From NCBI RefSeq assembly GCF_900177345.1, contig NZ_FWZT01000004.1, positions 186,001 to 250,000 on the forward strand: a stretch of 64,000 nt of DNA, in the 5' to 3' direction. Position numbers and translations under genes: made by a program. This stretch comes from Pseudobacteriovorax antillogorgiicola (lineage in GTDB: Bacteria > Bdellovibrionota_B > Oligoflexia > Oligoflexales > Oligoflexaceae). This document shows, piece by piece, positions 38,947 through 45,136 of the stretch. The notes beneath the pieces were generated by a model that was not told where the DNA came from, made no database searches, and saw nothing but the letters and a program-made list of their open reading frames with translations. Each line of letters begins with the position of its first letter. Position 1 is the first letter of the stretch.

Positions 38947-39513
38947 ATGCGTTCAACTCTAGCAATAACTGCGATTTTAGGCTGTAGTTCTGTTTTAATT
39001 GCCAATCAAATCGAAGAAGCTCCTCTAAACCTCTGGCAAATTACTTATAAGGCTGTTACATCCTACGCAGATGGCTACACTATCGAGGGGCAAAGCTCAC
39101 AGTTTCAAGGCAAATTCCAATATACCGATGGTGTCCTGCAACATATCGAGGGAACTGTAGAGCCAGAAGCCTTGAGTTCGGGGCTGAAGGTTCGCGATGA
39201 AAGTATCCTAGAAATTGTGTTCACAGATCGCGATGGCTCCATTCCAGACTTGCAGTGGCGCTCCAAAGAAGCAACCACCTGTAATTTATCGGAAGGTTTT
39301 TGGGTTTGTGAAGTTGACGGAGAGTTTAAAATTAGAAGAGAGTGGCAGGATCTGCCTCTAATCGTATACATCTCCGATTATCAGGGGCGAACCTGGGTTC
39401 ATGCTGAGGCGTCACTCAAACTATCCAGCTATCAGTTCTACGAAAATGCCTCTGATGATACCATTAAAGTCGCAGACGAAGTCTCGTTTGTCATTGATCT
39501 TCTAGGCGACTGA
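38947..39513 (+). CDS. YceI-like periplasmic protein
   Basis: 188 residues. A signal peptide (about 1-20; MRSTLAITAILGCSSVLIANQ) is followed by a beta-barrel-like domain reminiscent of the YceI lipocalin fold: FQGKFQYTDGVLQHIEGTVEPEAL, then SGLKVRDESILEIVF, where YceI usually has TGxxxRDxH. YceI proteins bind isoprenoid or other lipophilic molecules, and many lie beside cytochromes. Here the metal-like RDxH His is not kept, so the assignment is tentative. The start at 38947 has AAAGGA upstream. It is convergent with the monohaem lipoprotein (2-base gap) and preceded by a Fur-like site. Confidence 0.6.
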   Translation: MRSTLAITAILGCSSVLIANQIEEAPLNLWQITYKAVTSYADGYTIEGQSSQFQGKFQYTDGVLQHIEGTVEPEALSSGLKVRDESILEIVFTDRDGSIPDLQWRSKEATTCNLSEGFWVCEVDGEFKIRREWQDLPLIVYISDYQGRTWVHAEASLKLSSYQFYENASDDTIKVADEVSFVIDLLGD

Positions 39514-39515
39514 TT

Positions 39516-40517
39516 TCATAGATTATCGTCACTGATCACAAAAATCTCGCTTAAGCTTAAGTTGTGAGAGGCTTGAACCCCTTTTCGTTCGATAGTGTGG
39601 GATTGATCTTGATAGTTGATGGCTATCTTGAAATCGTAGAAATGTCCGGGAATCAGATATAGGTCTGATTGAAACAGAAGTCCTTTAAGGGGTAGAGCTT
39701 GGGCTTTCTCAGCTAACCTAAAACTAGGTTGGTAGTGAAGAGTTACTTGGGCATTGGATATGGGGGTCTGCTGATTGAGATTGAGATCGGGTAGGGCTCC
39801 CTCTTCAATCCAAGCTAAGATCCTTGAGGAGTCTTCGGAACTAAGTTTTTTCAGCTCTTTCGGAGGCATGTGCTGGCCTTCGATCACAGTTGCTAGCTTC
39901 TTTAATATATCCATATTCGTTTCCCGACTTTGAGAAAAAGGAAACGTTTGCAGGTTGATCGGAGAGTTTACGCGGTGACACACTACGCAGTTGTAGGTGT
40001 CGAGCACATCTTCGATTTGATGGAACCGAAGCCCTTCCCGTTGATCGTCAGTGCTTAGCTCAGAAACAAGAGCGAGACTTGCTCTAATTTGAGCCTGGCT
40101 TTGATCAGGTTCTATATTTTGGAGAGTCACTGTATGAAGATTTAAACTTTCCCCGGGCTCGATCCTAATGTCGGTTTCATATTTTCCTAGAGCACGCTCA
40201 TCATTGCTGATGACTGTGATTACTATGCGCTTTAATCCAATGCTAGGTGGAGTGAAGCTAATTTCTGTACTTTCTAAATCATGATAAGAAACCCATTGAG
40301 GATATTCTATAATGGAACCACTCTGGTCAAAACTGTGAAGCCTGACTTCCAAAATTTCCTCGCCAGTTAAATCTAATTGCGAATGGCTTGCAACCTGAAA
40401 CTTTAGTGGTAAGCGGTGTTCGCTAGGCGCTATGGTTTTTGATTGTAGGCAAGAGATGATATTTGAGACGAGAAAAATAGGAATAAATGAAATCAATCGA
40501 TAGCGCTTGACTTTCAT
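39516..40517 (-). CDS. Monohaem cytochrome c lipoprotein
   Basis: 333 residues. Signal with lipobox NIISC (Cys about 23). An N-terminal beta-sandwich-like region (about 35-165) precedes one haem site, NCVVCHRVNSP, with a likely distal Met in GQHMPPKEL 56 residues later, as in small class I-like cytochromes. A further beta region (about 255-333) closes the protein. It should be an anchored periplasmic or surface electron carrier. It is divergent from the dihaem cytochrome at 40595; on its strand TTGTCA, 17 bases and TATTTA precede it as a possible promoter. The start has an ideal AAGGAG. Confidence 0.8.
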   Translation of the reverse strand: MKVKRYRLISFIPIFLVSNIISCLQSKTIAPSEHRLPLKFQVASHSQLDLTGEEILEVRLHSFDQSGSIIEYPQWVSYHDLESTEISFTPPSIGLKRIVITVISNDERALGKYETDIRIEPGESLNLHTVTLQNIEPDQSQAQIRASLALVSELSTDDQREGLRFHQIEDVLDTYNCVVCHRVNSPINLQTFPFSQSRETNMDILKKLATVIEGQHMPPKELKKLSSEDSSRILAWIEEGALPDLNLNQQTPISNAQVTLHYQPSFRLAEKAQALPLKGLLFQSDLYLIPGHFYDFKIAINYQDQSHTIERKGVQASHNLSLSEIFVISDDNL

Positions 40518-40594
40518 GAGGCACTCCTTCAAAAGAATGTTTATCACTAAATAACGATCACATCTCCCTTTGACAAGAAGTATTTGAGACTCCC

Positions 40595-41263
40595 ATGAGA
40601 CTTTGTGATTTCTTTATTCCCAAACTGCATGCCCTTGTACTGCTTGTAGATGTTTCTCTACCTAGCACAGGCTTTGGTCAGTTACCTACACCGCCGACAC
40701 CATTGCCGCCAGTACCGCAACCACCAAGTCCCCCTACGCCCGAGCCGCCGACGCCAGATCCTAACCCTCCGGCTGATGAGGTTCATGGTTACGATCTATA
40801 TTTAGAGCAATGTGCTCTATGTCATGGCACGGACGGCGAGGGAACTGACCGTGGTTATCCTATCATTCTATTGCCAAAGGCCTACGCAACTGAGGTGATT
40901 CGACAAGGTCGTTCGGGTAACGATGAATTTAAGATTCCTATGCCTGCCTACGATGATGAAACCATCTCAGACTATCAGTTGGCTCAAATGTATGAGGCAA
41001 TTTATAAACCTCTATCCGCAAAAACAGGAAAAAGCCTTTACCTCACGTACTGTAGTAACTGTCATGGCTTAGAGGGTGAGGGAGGAATGAGTAAAAGGCC
41101 TGTGTCAACGAAACTGGATCAATTTAAAACGTTCATCCGTCAAGGCGCTGGGAGGCAAGACTACCTCAATCGAAATCTGTATATGCCGCGTTGGAATGCA
41201 AGGCAAATTTCAGATGACGATATTCAGCTCATGATTCAATACATCAAAGGTGAAAACTCTTGA
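40595..41263 (+). CDS. Dihaem cytochrome c with proline-rich N-terminal linker
   Basis: 222 residues. A signal peptide (about 1-28) is followed by a stretch dominated by Pro (about 30-62, repeating PPTP/PPSP). Two class I cytochrome c domains follow: haem 1 in CALCHGTDGEGTDRG with Met in IPMPAYDD, haem 2 in CSNCHGLEGEGGMS with Met in LYMPRWNARQIS. The stiff Pro linker would hold the haems away from a membrane or partner. It is closely related to the cytochrome at 44408. The next gene starts within its stop codon (TTGA overlap), so it is translationally coupled to the cytochrome-barrel protein. It should carry electrons in the periplasm. Confidence 0.9.
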   Translation: MRLCDFFIPKLHALVLLVDVSLPSTGFGQLPTPPTPLPPVPQPPSPPTPEPPTPDPNPPADEVHGYDLYLEQCALCHGTDGEGTDRGYPIILLPKAYATEVIRQGRSGNDEFKIPMPAYDDETISDYQLAQMYEAIYKPLSAKTGKSLYLTYCSNCHGLEGEGGMSKRPVSTKLDQFKTFIRQGAGRQDYLNRNLYMPRWNARQISDDDIQLMIQYIKGENS

Positions 41264-42645
41264 GACACTTTTTTGCCTGCATATTGATCTTAATTTGCCC
41301 AAATATTTTAGCTGAACCATGGCTAGGAACCCGGTATGCCCAGAACTGTGCTGGTTGCCATGCTCCAGGTCGTATCAATCTGCCGCCTATTGATCGGCGA
41401 TGTACACTATCCTGTCAAGGTTGTCACATCAGTCCCTCGGGAGGAGGCATGAGAAACCAGTATGGCCGTTGGAACGGGAATCGCTGGTTGACTATGTTTA
41501 GGTCGAAGTCACTACGAAGTAAGCCACTACCTAAAAGTTTTCCTGAACAGACCTACAACTTAGATACAGATGTGTTGCAGGAACTCATCACTACAGATGA
41601 CCTACATCCTGAGCAAATCTACGACCGTCGTGATCGTCGCGAGCATGTGACCGCGGCCCATCGGCGGCAGTTCGAAATGAATATTCCAAAGGATGATCCC
41701 TATTACTATCTTGGCAACTCTGTAATTGATGGTGGCATTGATCTAAGATATCTAAGCCTAAAAAGGGAACGGGCTCAAAAATCGTTTTTGATGAATATGG
41801 ATTTTGGAGTTCGATATCGACCATATCATCGGCATCTGAACTTAGTCTACGAATCCCGATTCTTAGGGAGCCCAGACGACCAAAGCCCAGAAGAATCATT
41901 GAATCGGCAAACGCTACGTTCGCTCTATATATTGTTTGATGACTTACCCTACAATACCTTTCTCCAGTACGGTTATTTTCTGCCACTGTTTGGCAATTAT
42001 ACATCTGATCATACTAGCCTGCCACAGCAGATGTTTTCATCGGCTATAACCGGCAGCCCTCAAGGTGCCTATGGGATTAGTTTTAAGGCTTTGAGCTTAG
42101 GTACAGCACCAAACGTACCATTTGCCAATGTCCATGGTTTTTCCCAGGTGAAGGATGGCGATCAAATTTATCGACATAAAGGATATGCTCTCAATATTGG
42201 CTTAAGATTCGTTACTTTGGGTGGGACTGTCAACTATTCGTTTTGGCGATCTGATTTGGAGCATGCCAATGGTGATGAATCAGATCTTGCTATGCATTCA
42301 CTTAATCTGGCAATGCAGCTAGGTTTTAATCGAGTTTACCTATCTTTTGAGGGTTTGGTGATCGAAAAAGATAGCTCTTTTGAATTTATTCGAATCAGTC
42401 TTCAAAATTATCAAGCCCGTGTGCGCCTGTGGCGCGAGTCTTATCTTGAACTGGATTATTCTCAAGCCAATGGGGGAGCTGACCTTCAACCAGGAAAAAC
42501 CACACAAGTTAGCCATGGACTCAGAGCGTTCCTCTTGCCAGGGGTGGACTGGAGCCTTAAAGTCGTTCACGATCGTTTCGAGGGAGAATCGCAGCCAGTC
42601 ATATACGAACGCACCTTGTTGAGTCATATTCACCTCTACTTGTAA
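41260..42645 (+). CDS. Cytochrome c-outer membrane beta-barrel fusion protein
   Basis: 461 residues. A signal peptide (1-18, ending ILAE) leads straight to two haem motifs, NCAGCHAPG and SCQGCHISPSGGGMRNQYGRW. After a linker with Arg/Asp-rich sequence (about 100-145), residues 150-461 show 14-16 alternating strands (FLMNMDFGVRYRPY, HLNLVYESRFLG, YALNIGLRFVTLGG and so on), ending LLSHIHLYL, a barrel C-terminus. The layout matches the principle of Cyc2-type fused porin-cytochromes, in which a haem plugs a barrel and moves electrons across the outer membrane, but it has two haem motifs and is not an evident Cyc2 homologue. A TTG start overlaps the upstream stop; AAAGGTG lies eight bases before it. 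Confidence 0.82.
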   Translation: MRHFFACILILICPNILAEPWLGTRYAQNCAGCHAPGRINLPPIDRRCTLSCQGCHISPSGGGMRNQYGRWNGNRWLTMFRSKSLRSKPLPKSFPEQTYNLDTDVLQELITTDDLHPEQIYDRRDRREHVTAAHRRQFEMNIPKDDPYYYLGNSVIDGGIDLRYLSLKRERAQKSFLMNMDFGVRYRPYHRHLNLVYESRFLGSPDDQSPEESLNRQTLRSLYILFDDLPYNTFLQYGYFLPLFGNYTSDHTSLPQQMFSSAITGSPQGAYGISFKALSLGTAPNVPFANVHGFSQVKDGDQIYRHKGYALNIGLRFVTLGGTVNYSFWRSDLEHANGDESDLAMHSLNLAMQLGFNRVYLSFEGLVIEKDSSFEFIRISLQNYQARVRLWRESYLELDYSQANGGADLQPGKTTQVSHGLRAFLLPGVDWSLKVVHDRFEGESQPVIYERTLLSHIHLYL

Positions 42646-42650
42646 GGATT

Positions 42651-43055
42651 ATGATGCTTCGACTTTACTTTTTTTTGGGCCTGATCTCATTCGCATGTGG
42701 TTATTCAGACTACGAACGAGTAGTTTATCCACAAGCTTCGCCACAGGAACTAGCGGGAGATACAACTTGTGCTCTATCATTTGCAGCCTACGATTACCTG
42801 GTAAAAGACGCTATTGCAATGTCGTGTACGAGTGGATGTCATGAACTGGGTGGAATCGGTGAGGCTGCCCTAAAGTTTACAGGCGATACCCAGGATGACA
42901 GCACTTTGCTTTTGGATTGGCTTCGCACTCAAGAAAATTTGTTCTTAGACAAGGCTACGGGCCGTATTGATCATTTGGGAGGCCCTGCATTAGATGCTAT
43001 GGGTGAGCAAGATATGCTGAATTTTAAGAATATTCAGGACTATTGTCGTACATAA
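42651..43055 (+). CDS. Small lipoprotein with a CX3CH haem-like motif
   Basis: 134 residues. Signal with lipobox ISFAC (Cys about 16). The mature part has two spaced cysteines: TTCALSF and MSCTSGCHELGG. The latter is CX3CH, one residue longer than canonical CXXCH; such variants can carry haem c in a few systems. Alternatively, C-x3-C is a disulfide. A later KFTGDTQDD and GEQDMLNFKNIQDYC complete it, with the general look of the cytochrome lipoproteins that pair with 'DTYNCVVCH' proteins. It starts 5 bases after the fusion protein and ends the three-gene operon, so it probably serves the same conduit. Confidence 0.65.
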   Translation: MMLRLYFFLGLISFACGYSDYERVVYPQASPQELAGDTTCALSFAAYDYLVKDAIAMSCTSGCHELGGIGEAALKFTGDTQDDSTLLLDWLRTQENLFLDKATGRIDHLGGPALDAMGEQDMLNFKNIQDYCRT

Positions 43056-43064
43056 ATAAGGGGA

Positions 43065-43095
43065 GTAAAGTTCCATGCAGATCATGGAGCTTTAC
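43065..43095. terminator. Hairpin between convergent cytochrome and esterase genes
   Basis: GTAAAG-T-TCCATG (43065-43077) pairs with CATGGA-G-CTTTAC (43083-43095) with one T/G pair: 13 pairs and a 5-base loop. It lies right after the cytochrome operon stop and 3 bases from the esterase stop, so it can serve both. Confidence 0.7.
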
Positions 43096-43098
43096 GAT

Positions 43099-44100
43099 TT
43101 ACTTACTCTGTGGGGGGAGAATAATGTTGGAGTCAAAGTTATCGGCGCTAAAAACGTCTAGGGAAAGAGCTTCATCTTTCTTGCTGAAGTGGCCAGGAGC
43201 ACTATTGGTAAAGTAGCTCATGTAACGCAGATCTTTCTTTAAAAATAGGTAGTGCCAAGCGATGGCGAACGCAGCAATCGGGCCTTGCTGGGGGCCTGTG
43301 ATATTGATGTTATGATTAACTCCCGTGAGGTCCATAAACGCCTTTGATTTGCCTTGGATCTCGTTATACCGATTGCGAATAGCGCCCGACTGGGAAACAA
43401 TATCCTCCACTCCAGCAATCAACAGAACTGCTGCATCGGTCGTTACCAGAGCTGGGGCAAATGCCATCAGGGGAATCGCAGCCTTCACTTCGCCACTTCT
43501 GGCATTGGCAGCTAATATGGTGCCAGCGCCGCCCATGGAATGGCCTACGATCCCAAGAGCATCTAAGTTGACCTTGCTAAAGATCGCCGAGTTCTCGTTG
43601 GCGGTCTCTTGCTTGAGCATATCCAACGCTCCCTCATGGCCTCGCTGCCATATGGTAGCATCGATTAGATTGATGTTCGTAGGAGTGAACGTGATTACAA
43701 TAAAACCGTGACTTGCCATTCTCTTTGCGAGCCACTCGACCATTTCCTTGCGAGTCCCCAATCCCGGACTGAGCGTCGTCGCCGGAAATATGTCTCCCTC
43801 AGCGCCGATGGGATAGAAGATCTTGGCTGATTCATAGGCTTCTGATTCAAGGCCTGTGTCATAACTATTCCAAGACTCACGATAGGGACCCCAAGTATCT
43901 GTTTCGTGAAAAGGGGTTCCATCCTGAAAGGATTCGGGGTTCTCCGTGGGTTCAGGTGACGGACTAGAATCAGGTTGTTGTGCGGGTAGGGTATCTACAG
44001 TTTGCCCTGGTGCGGTGGTCTGCTGTTCATTTTGCTCTGTTGGTTGGTTGCAAGCCATCGCTAAAAGCAAAATCGATATAACGATTAAATTGGTATTCAT
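43099..44100 (-). CDS. Cutinase/PET-hydrolase-like alpha/beta-hydrolase lipoprotein
   Basis: 333 residues. Signal with lipobox LAMAC (Cys17), then a Gln/Pro/Ser-rich linker (18-60). The hydrolase domain has S188 in IVGHSMGGAG, D233 in LIAGVEDIVSQSGA and H263 in LTGVNHNIN as the probable triad, plus the oxyanion-side SPGLGTRKEM and PLMAFAP. These patterns resemble polyester hydrolases (cutinase/PETase type and chlorophyllase-like relatives). The cutinase-type aromatic W after the Ser-loop is not evident, so activity on polyesters is only possible. It is anchored in the envelope and faces the cytochrome operon tail to tail. A putative minus-strand TTGACA lies about 54 bases upstream. Confidence 0.8.
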   Translation of the reverse strand: MNTNLIVISILLLAMACNQPTEQNEQQTTAPGQTVDTLPAQQPDSSPSPEPTENPESFQDGTPFHETDTWGPYRESWNSYDTGLESEAYESAKIFYPIGAEGDIFPATTLSPGLGTRKEMVEWLAKRMASHGFIVITFTPTNINLIDATIWQRGHEGALDMLKQETANENSAIFSKVNLDALGIVGHSMGGAGTILAANARSGEVKAAIPLMAFAPALVTTDAAVLLIAGVEDIVSQSGAIRNRYNEIQGKSKAFMDLTGVNHNINITGPQQGPIAAFAIAWHYLFLKKDLRYMSYFTNSAPGHFSKKDEALSLDVFSADNFDSNIILPPQSK

Positions 44101-44341
44101 AAGTTTTCTCCTCTTGTCTGCTTTCAGTTCTGCAAATAGCGGTCCTTAGTTGCTGTCAAGAAAAAGTGAACCAAATGCCAAACGGCGCCAATAAAATTTA
44201 AGAATTTCAGTTAGTTAAGTTATTGCAGTAGATAGGAATCTTAGGGTATCGTGTCACATAAATGTGGATGAAGAACTGTTGTTAGGAATTAAGAGTCCGA
44301 AATGATTGCTGTATGCTCTTTGCATAACGTCATATCTGAGT

Positions 44342-44372
44342 AAAAACGAAAAAGCCCGCCTCTAGGGCGAGC
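44342..44372 (-). terminator. Intrinsic terminator of the protease-cytochrome operon
   Basis: On the minus strand GCTCGCC, loop CTAGA, GGCGGGC (one G/U pair) is followed by TTTTTCGTTTTT. It lies 36 bases after the stop of the cytochrome at 44408. The remaining sequence of the gap 44101-44407 holds no gene I can see. Confidence 0.8.
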
Positions 44373-44407
44373 AGAGATTTCAGTTGATACTCCCTTCAAG
44401 TGTCCGG

Positions 44408-45136
44408 TCAATCATCATCGTCGTCGTCATCGTAGCCCCCTCCCAAAGAGTATAGGTAGTAAATCATCATTCTTATCTCTTCATTAGGAAGTTCCTGCCA
44501 GTTCCATCGAGGCATGTAGTCGGTACGAGACCAATAGTTATTATAGCCTTCCCCTTCCCGTACATATTCATAAACTTCATCTAGCTCCCCAAGAACCGAT
44601 TCCCCGGACATGCCTCCTCTACCATCGAGTCCGTGACAATTGGCGCAAAAGGTTTCATACACCTTCTTTCCGGTTCGCGGTCGGGGGAGGTTATGCAGGT
44701 AGTCCCACATTTCCCTCATCTGTTGATCGGAAATCAATTCACGACTATAGGCTGGCATATCGATATCAAAGTCTGGATGATTCTTGCGACCATGACGTGT
44801 GATATAGGTAGCAAAGCCTCGAACGGGAAACTGAATGCGATAGCCACGCTCGGTACCCTCTCCAATCTCTCCATGACATACTGCACACTCTTTCAGATAA
44901 ACTTCTTTACCAGAAAGGCCAAAGTTGGAGTCGTCCCCACCTCCCGGTGGGGTAGGGGGCTGGGGATCTCCAGGAGATGGCGGTGGTGTGGGGCCTGGTG
45001 GTGTTGGAGGTGTTGGAGGTGTTGGTGGTTCAGAGGGATTGATCACCACAGGTGGGCTAGGAAAACCAGGTATGGTTACCTCCCCAGCAAAAGCAGCTGA
45101 ACTTAGAGTTGTGATAACGGCGATGATAGTCTTCAT
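44408..45136 (-). CDS. Dihaem cytochrome c with Pro-rich linker and poly-Asp tail
   Basis: 242 residues. Signal peptide (about 1-17, ending SSAAFA), then a Pro/Gly-rich linker (about 25-68) built from PPTPPTPP-like units. Two cytochrome c domains: CAVCHGEIGEGTERGYRI with Met in IDMPAYSRE, and CANCHGLDGRGGMSGES with Met in DYMPRWNWQEL. It parallels the protein at 40595 almost motif for motif, so the two are paralogues. Unlike that one it ends GGGY followed by seven aspartates. It starts 10 bases after the subtilisin-like protease stop and is followed by a terminator, so it forms an operon with that protease. Periplasmic electron carrier; partner unknown. Confidence 0.9.
   Translation of the reverse strand: MKTIIAVITTLSSAAFAGEVTIPGFPSPPVVINPSEPPTPPTPPTPPGPTPPPSPGDPQPPTPPGGGDDSNFGLSGKEVYLKECAVCHGEIGEGTERGYRIQFPVRGFATYITRHGRKNHPDFDIDMPAYSRELISDQQMREMWDYLHNLPRPRTGKKVYETFCANCHGLDGRGGMSGESVLGELDEVYEYVREGEGYNNYWSRTDYMPRWNWQELPNEEIRMMIYYLYSLGGGYDDDDDDD

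Follow-up and report, generated by a model that had tools for sequence, protein, structure and literature searches.

The way in which Cyc2 and similar one-protein conduits carry electrons through the outer membrane is an open question, and a cluster of cytochrome genes on a contig of Pseudobacteriovorax antillogorgiicola, a relative of the predatory Bdellovibrio group, raises it again: does the cluster encode a conduit in which the hemes and the membrane-spanning barrel belong to a single protein? The window that we analyzed, a stretch of 64,000 nucleotides, holds three tightly packed genes between 40595 and 43055, as read from its open reading frames (ORFs) and their translations (Table 1). 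An initial annotation had described this trio (40595, 41260, and 42651) as translationally coupled, and the coordinates, motifs, and overlaps all match the ORFs. The second gene starts with a TTG that overlaps the stop of the first, and this start is required because the signal peptide of the encoded protein (RHFFACILILICPNILA, then EPW) depends on it; 5 bases separate its end from the ATG of the third. All eight heme motifs of the window fall within 5.6 kb (39516 to 45136), in 5 of its 52 ORFs (39516, 40595, 41260, 42651, and 44408), and about 0.1 (0.08) CXXCH motifs are expected by chance in the whole window when each protein is shuffled. Those of the first gene of the trio are CALCH and CSNCH. 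Cytochrome c scores above the Pfam cutoff only in the two Pro-linked proteins, the fused protein falling below it. The second Pro-linked cytochrome, which falls outside the interval first annotated, is probably a member of the same cluster, and the monoheme lipoprotein that had been reported beside the trio is indeed there, encoded divergently.

Table 1. Genes of the window and gene sets around relatives of the fused protein (positions are those of the window unless a locus is named)
Feature	Position or locus	Strand	Evidence or remark
YceI-like secreted protein (weak assignment)	38947..39513	+	custom YceI profile, E 6.5e-4
Monoheme lipoprotein (CVVCH), divergent from operon	39516..40547	-	counterparts beside the L034 and L058 barrels
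Diheme class I cytochrome c with Pro-rich spacer, 222 aa	40595..41263	+	PF13442, E 2e-21, two stretches
Fused diheme cytochrome-porin, core protein, 461 aa	41260..42645	+	CAGCH and CQGCH; AF2 barrel
Small monoheme lipoprotein, CX3CH (CTSGCH), 134 aa	42651..43055	+	relatives beside other barrels
Lipoprotein-like alpha/beta hydrolase	43099..44100		PETase-like Pfam family PF12740, E 1.4e-31
Second Pro-linked diheme cytochrome c	44408..45136	-	44% identical to 40595-41263
YceI, heme lipoprotein, and monoheme barrel	L173, L176, L178; L166		other order in L166
YceI beside monoheme barrel	L162, L170, L175, L177		
Heme lipoprotein beside monoheme barrel	L165, L167, L168, L169; L174		CSCH variant in L174
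Operon of b561 (PF01292), DUF1924 cytochrome c, diheme lipoprotein, and monoheme barrel	L171:2734-5664; L172:2675-5575		
cbb3 oxidase genes ccoNO, ccoP, and ccoG upstream of monoheme barrel	L164		
Multicopper oxidase gene directly after monoheme fused barrel	L166:3151-4641		
DUF1585/1588-like heme protein, lipoprotein, and 500-aa secreted protein (no Pfam match) beside diheme barrel	L057:5136-8547		similar in L064, L068, L091, and L078

That annotation also described a diheme cytochrome fused to a beta-barrel, to be checked by structure prediction. The AF2 model from a 15-sequence alignment (pLDDT 75.8, pTM 0.78) bears it out, with 16 strands across residues 156 to 460, and the best Foldseek matches of this model are 16-strand general porins, among them Vibrio OmpT (E 5e-10) and OmpU and OmpF types. 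The single-sequence AF2 prediction reached a pLDDT of only 30, and in the alignment-based model the heme-bearing residues 1 to 60 lie mostly below a pLDDT of ~55. Porins carry a pore-constricting loop, L3, between strands 5 and 6, which folds into the pore. The sole long loop in the AF2 strand list (241 to 272, 32 residues) sits between the same two strands; its equivalence to L3 is one of fold only, since hhalign finds no homology to OmpF, OmpC, or PhoE (probability 0.3%). Sequence searches of Pfam, NCBIfam, and the PDB give the fused protein no name, and an internalin identity was rejected, its weak matches being judged chance.

The fused protein is built like Cyc2, yet it is not Cyc2. Cyc2 and Cyt572 are fused monoheme cytochrome-porins, Cyc2 being an iron oxidase (PMC8406198, PMC5566968); their models match porins of the same class as our barrel (PMC10654088, PMC8406198), and in published Cyc2 models the single heme sits where the pore opens to the periplasm (PMC8406198). 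The resemblance to Cyc2 drawn at the outset holds for the architecture: both have a signal peptide, a short N-terminal heme segment, and a 16-strand porin-like barrel in about 400 to 460 aa, the heme segment is the most conserved part, and the mature protein begins A-x-P. Unlike Cyc2 with its single CXXCH (PMC8406198), however, all 49 diheme members of the family carry two heme motifs and an invariant extra Cys, which in the window protein are C30-C33-H34 (heme 1), C52-C55-H56 (heme 2), and Cys48. Our comparison was made through the published motif rather than through Cyc2 sequences, and that motif, AXPXFAR[Q/K][T/Y], which has been called unique to Cyc2, is absent: the window protein reads AEPWLGTRYAQNCAGCH, the family consensus is AEPWLxxRFAQN, and the sequences of the monoheme relatives are closer (ALPEIARYG in L171), though they too fail. 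The partners differ from those of Cyc2 as well, being a small heme lipoprotein, a YceI-like protein, and Pro-linked diheme cytochromes.

Other known conduits are more distant. The annotation had set the locus apart from MtrCAB, with its separate parts, and we found no Mtr parts in it; the MtrB/PioB profile (PF11854) has no match in this genome or in 57 others of the phylum. Both MtrCAB/PioAB/MtoAB and the window system would place hemes inside an outer membrane barrel, with an outer cytochrome as a possible partner, but here the parts are fused rather than separate, with 2 rather than 10 hemes and 16 rather than 26 strands, and the neighboring cytochromes of the window, carrying no more than 2 heme motifs each, include no decaheme-type partner. 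Geobacter OmbB-OmaB-OmcB likewise pairs an outer membrane barrel with a cytochrome lipoprotein encoded alongside; going by the literature descriptions, the window system differs in having no multiheme cytochrome of that size and in a barrel that itself bears hemes. In Shewanella, YceI and YceJ (b561) have been proposed to form a chain that delivers electrons to the outer membrane (PMC8981235), and YceI-like proteins do recur beside our barrels, with b561 in two relatives, although the known pair includes no porin or fused cytochrome. We found no description of diheme fused cytochrome-porins in the open-access literature, where the Cyc2 papers treat Cyc2 as monoheme, and no publication that connects Bdellovibrio, Oligoflexus, or Pseudobacteriovorax to cytochromes of this kind.

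The system had been presented as one in an organism not known for extracellular electron transfer. Our searches show that it is not restricted to a single organism: it belongs to a family spread over the Bdellovibrionota, a family of outer membrane fused cytochromes that we take with high confidence to be real. The aligned relatives are nearly all from this phylum and often lie beside genes for heme lipoproteins, YceI, cytochrome b561, or terminal oxidases. Clear members of the diheme branch occur in 16 of the 58 genomes of our phylum sample (the copy in G004 has a single heme motif), and weak matches in 5 further genomes proved to be monoheme relatives; one of these, used as the query, found matches in 21 of the 58, nearly all of them monoheme fused proteins. 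An alignment search of 84,980 species genomes yielded at least 45 loci, a lower bound because the method requires exact matches of conserved stretches; the same contig scan with a single protein as the query returned no matches. Nearly all of these loci are from Bdellovibrionota, including Bdellovibrionales, and one is from Eisenbacteria, whose homologue retains C48, H251, and H458 and has a monoheme lipoprotein gene preceding the barrel gene. No relatives were found in viral contigs or plasmids. In our tree the window protein groups with further Oligoflexales-type sequences in a 15-member clade (support 99/99), and its own genome holds four copies: that of the window, two further full barrels, and one short form (L036). 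Two records labeled Streptomyces griseus and Zetaproteobacteria (L083 and L062) carry typical members of the Bdellovibrionota branch, and their labels look wrong.

Where the hemes might sit is best approached through conservation among 68 proteins, 49 of them diheme (the window protein included) and 19 monoheme. Diheme and monoheme barrels share a median identity of 15%, and over 312 columns only R163, M178, and H251 are invariant; G245 and G308 are kept in 66 of the 68, and residue 458 is His in 64 proteins and Gln in the other 4. H251 lies within the motif [FY]G...[DEN]H of the 241 to 272 loop, at the L3 position of the AF2 strand list. Because this long loop folds into the pore in porins, H251 is the strongest candidate for the residue that holds the heme common to all members (heme 2) in the barrel, as its distal ligand; the barrel had been called diheme plugged, and the invariant loop-3 His supports a heme in the pore, albeit indirectly. 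H458, on the last strand, faces the lumen by hydropathy alternation. We dropped a model of two invariant His for two hemes, as monoheme members keep both positions (His458 in 15 of 19). Cys48, on the other hand, is found in 49 of 49 diheme proteins and 0 of 19 monoheme ones, thus tracking heme 1 without exception. Diheme proteins as a rule have five Cys past the signal peptide, and since the other four bind heme, C48 has no intramolecular disulfide partner; the pattern makes C48 a candidate ligand or modulator of heme 1. The invariant R163, M178, and H251 columns and a Cys48 that travels with heme 1 are new here. M178 may also be a distal heme ligand, being invariant in 68 of 68 proteins, but hydropathy alternation puts it on the lipid-facing side. 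The invariance of this seemingly lipid-facing residue may mark a trimer contact or a ligand.

Conservation and topology together suggest a heme in the lumen. Porin termini, however, are periplasmic, and one or two hemes scarcely span the membrane. With an N terminus of low model confidence and a linker of ~75 residues between heme segment and barrel, the cytochrome segment could instead face the periplasm only, plugging or gating the porin or anchoring periplasmic redox partners while no electrons cross. This we consider quite unlikely: all 68 proteins retain His251 in the predicted pore-lining loop despite a barrel identity of ~15%, which would be unexpected if the heme stayed outside the lumen.

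We infer that the family probably moves electrons through the outer membrane. Taken whole, the best explanation that we can offer for the 41260 protein, one that we favor with moderate confidence, is a fused cytochrome-porin acting as an electron conduit. In such a conduit the N-terminal diheme segment would reach from the periplasmic mouth of the barrel into its lumen. Loop-3 His251 would fix heme 2 at the constriction, heme 1, confined to diheme members, would be ligated or tuned by Cys48, and His458 would project into the lumen close to the periplasmic rim. By way of the two hemes, electrons could then pass between the periplasmic cytochrome pool, here the Pro-linked diheme cytochromes, and the extracellular mouth, and the monoheme lipoprotein would dock at one side of the barrel to serve as a relay. 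A broader proposal, which we advance only tentatively and with some doubt, is a separate superfamily of mono- and diheme fused porins across the Bdellovibrionota, in which electrons would cross the outer membrane through a heme ligated by the loop-3 His in the pore and, in the diheme branch, a Cys-associated second heme would lengthen the wire. If true, one-protein conduits would either have arisen a second time or have a deep branch apart from Cyc2, in predatory-type bacteria that were not known to possess any. The family adds an electron conduit candidate to the Bdellovibrionota, for which we found no outer membrane conduit described in the literature. The natural variation of the family, with its mono- and diheme branches, an invariant pore-loop His, and a Cys that comes and goes with heme 1, provides a test of how one-protein conduits work.

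The partner genes bear on this conduit to differing degrees. Relatives of the small lipoprotein lie directly downstream of the barrel in L034, L058, L057, and L062 and near that of L090; the family adjoins a barrel in 5 loci and is ~1.2 kb off in a sixth. Its CX2CH, CX3CH, or CX4CH sites align at the same place, which suggests that the unusual CX3CH motif of the window protein does bind heme, and His108 (window numbering), invariant among these proteins, is a candidate distal ligand. The six best matches of a phylum-wide profile search are those adjacent to or near barrels, a ranking that is not independent, as these six built the profile. Lipoprotein and barrel co-occur in 12 of 13 genomes (P = 2e-8 with kinship ignored; P = 6e-5 by genus). 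Of the terminal lipoprotein partner first envisaged, recurrence beside the barrel in other genera supports the partnership and not surface exposure or a terminal role. Counterparts of the divergent monoheme lipoprotein occupy the equivalent position beside the L034 and L058 barrels; the window protein matches that of L058 with an E of 8e-6 over the heme domain (L034 versus L058, 4e-34). The YceI-like label of 38947-39513 fared less well: the protein matches no Pfam family at E 1 and falls short of the PF04264 gathering score, but among 697 ORFs it scores highest with a profile built from YceI proteins adjacent to related barrels, at the weak E value of Table 1. As for the Pro-linked diheme cytochrome, its proposed role as feeder is specific to the window locus; the only close relative in another genome (G027) lies on a contig that has no barrel copy.

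In which direction would electrons flow? We slightly favor uptake toward terminal oxidases, since genes for oxidases of the aa3 and cbb3 types adjoin some of the relatives (Table 1 for cbb3). One of these relatives, L048 in G004, which has one heme motif yet belongs to the diheme branch by its barrel, precedes coxBAC (COX1/2/3) in the same orientation, a single gene intervening. The genome of the window organism itself encodes three heme-copper oxidases. The same conduit could also run in the opposite direction: b561-type proteins, a YceI-like protein, and periplasmic cytochromes would then carry electrons from quinol outward, to acceptors outside the cell or reductases at its surface. The L171 and L172 operons, in which b561 and a DUF1924 cytochrome accompany a diheme lipoprotein and the barrel, fit export and may encode an entire route from the inner membrane to the outer one. 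YceI, moreover, recurs beside the barrels (PF04264 is confirmed in neighbors of monoheme relatives), and the YceJ-YceI chain was proposed for outward flow in Shewanella (PMC8981235). The relatives that adjoin terminal oxidase genes nevertheless fit uptake, and no CymA/NrfH-type quinol dehydrogenase or cytochrome was found in the genome of the window organism; we regard export as unlikely. Counting against the conduit reading as a whole are this lack of a CymA-type enzyme and the absence of a conserved cytochrome operon around most Bdellovibrionia copies of the barrel.

A role outside respiration would be the service of an envelope enzyme, in which barrel and cytochromes support secreted DUF1588/DUF1585-like heme proteins acting on outside substrates. 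Such a heme protein, a lipoprotein, and a secreted protein of ~500 aa do lie beside the barrel in L057, L064, L068, L091, L078, and L052, and of the 15 genomes with this secreted protein, 12 also encode the barrel. This gene set is not adjacent in the window, however, the copy in the same genome being on another contig, and the Pfam scores of the DUF1585/1588-like neighbors are weak, so that we consider this role improbable. Short diheme barrel paralogues, finally, adjoin a divergent tetraheme lipoprotein gene in L036 (C4:82 kb of the window organism's own genome) and in its relatives L052, L053, and L162; the L162 cluster extends to a diheme lipoprotein, a monoheme barrel, and YceI, with nine heme motifs in five genes.
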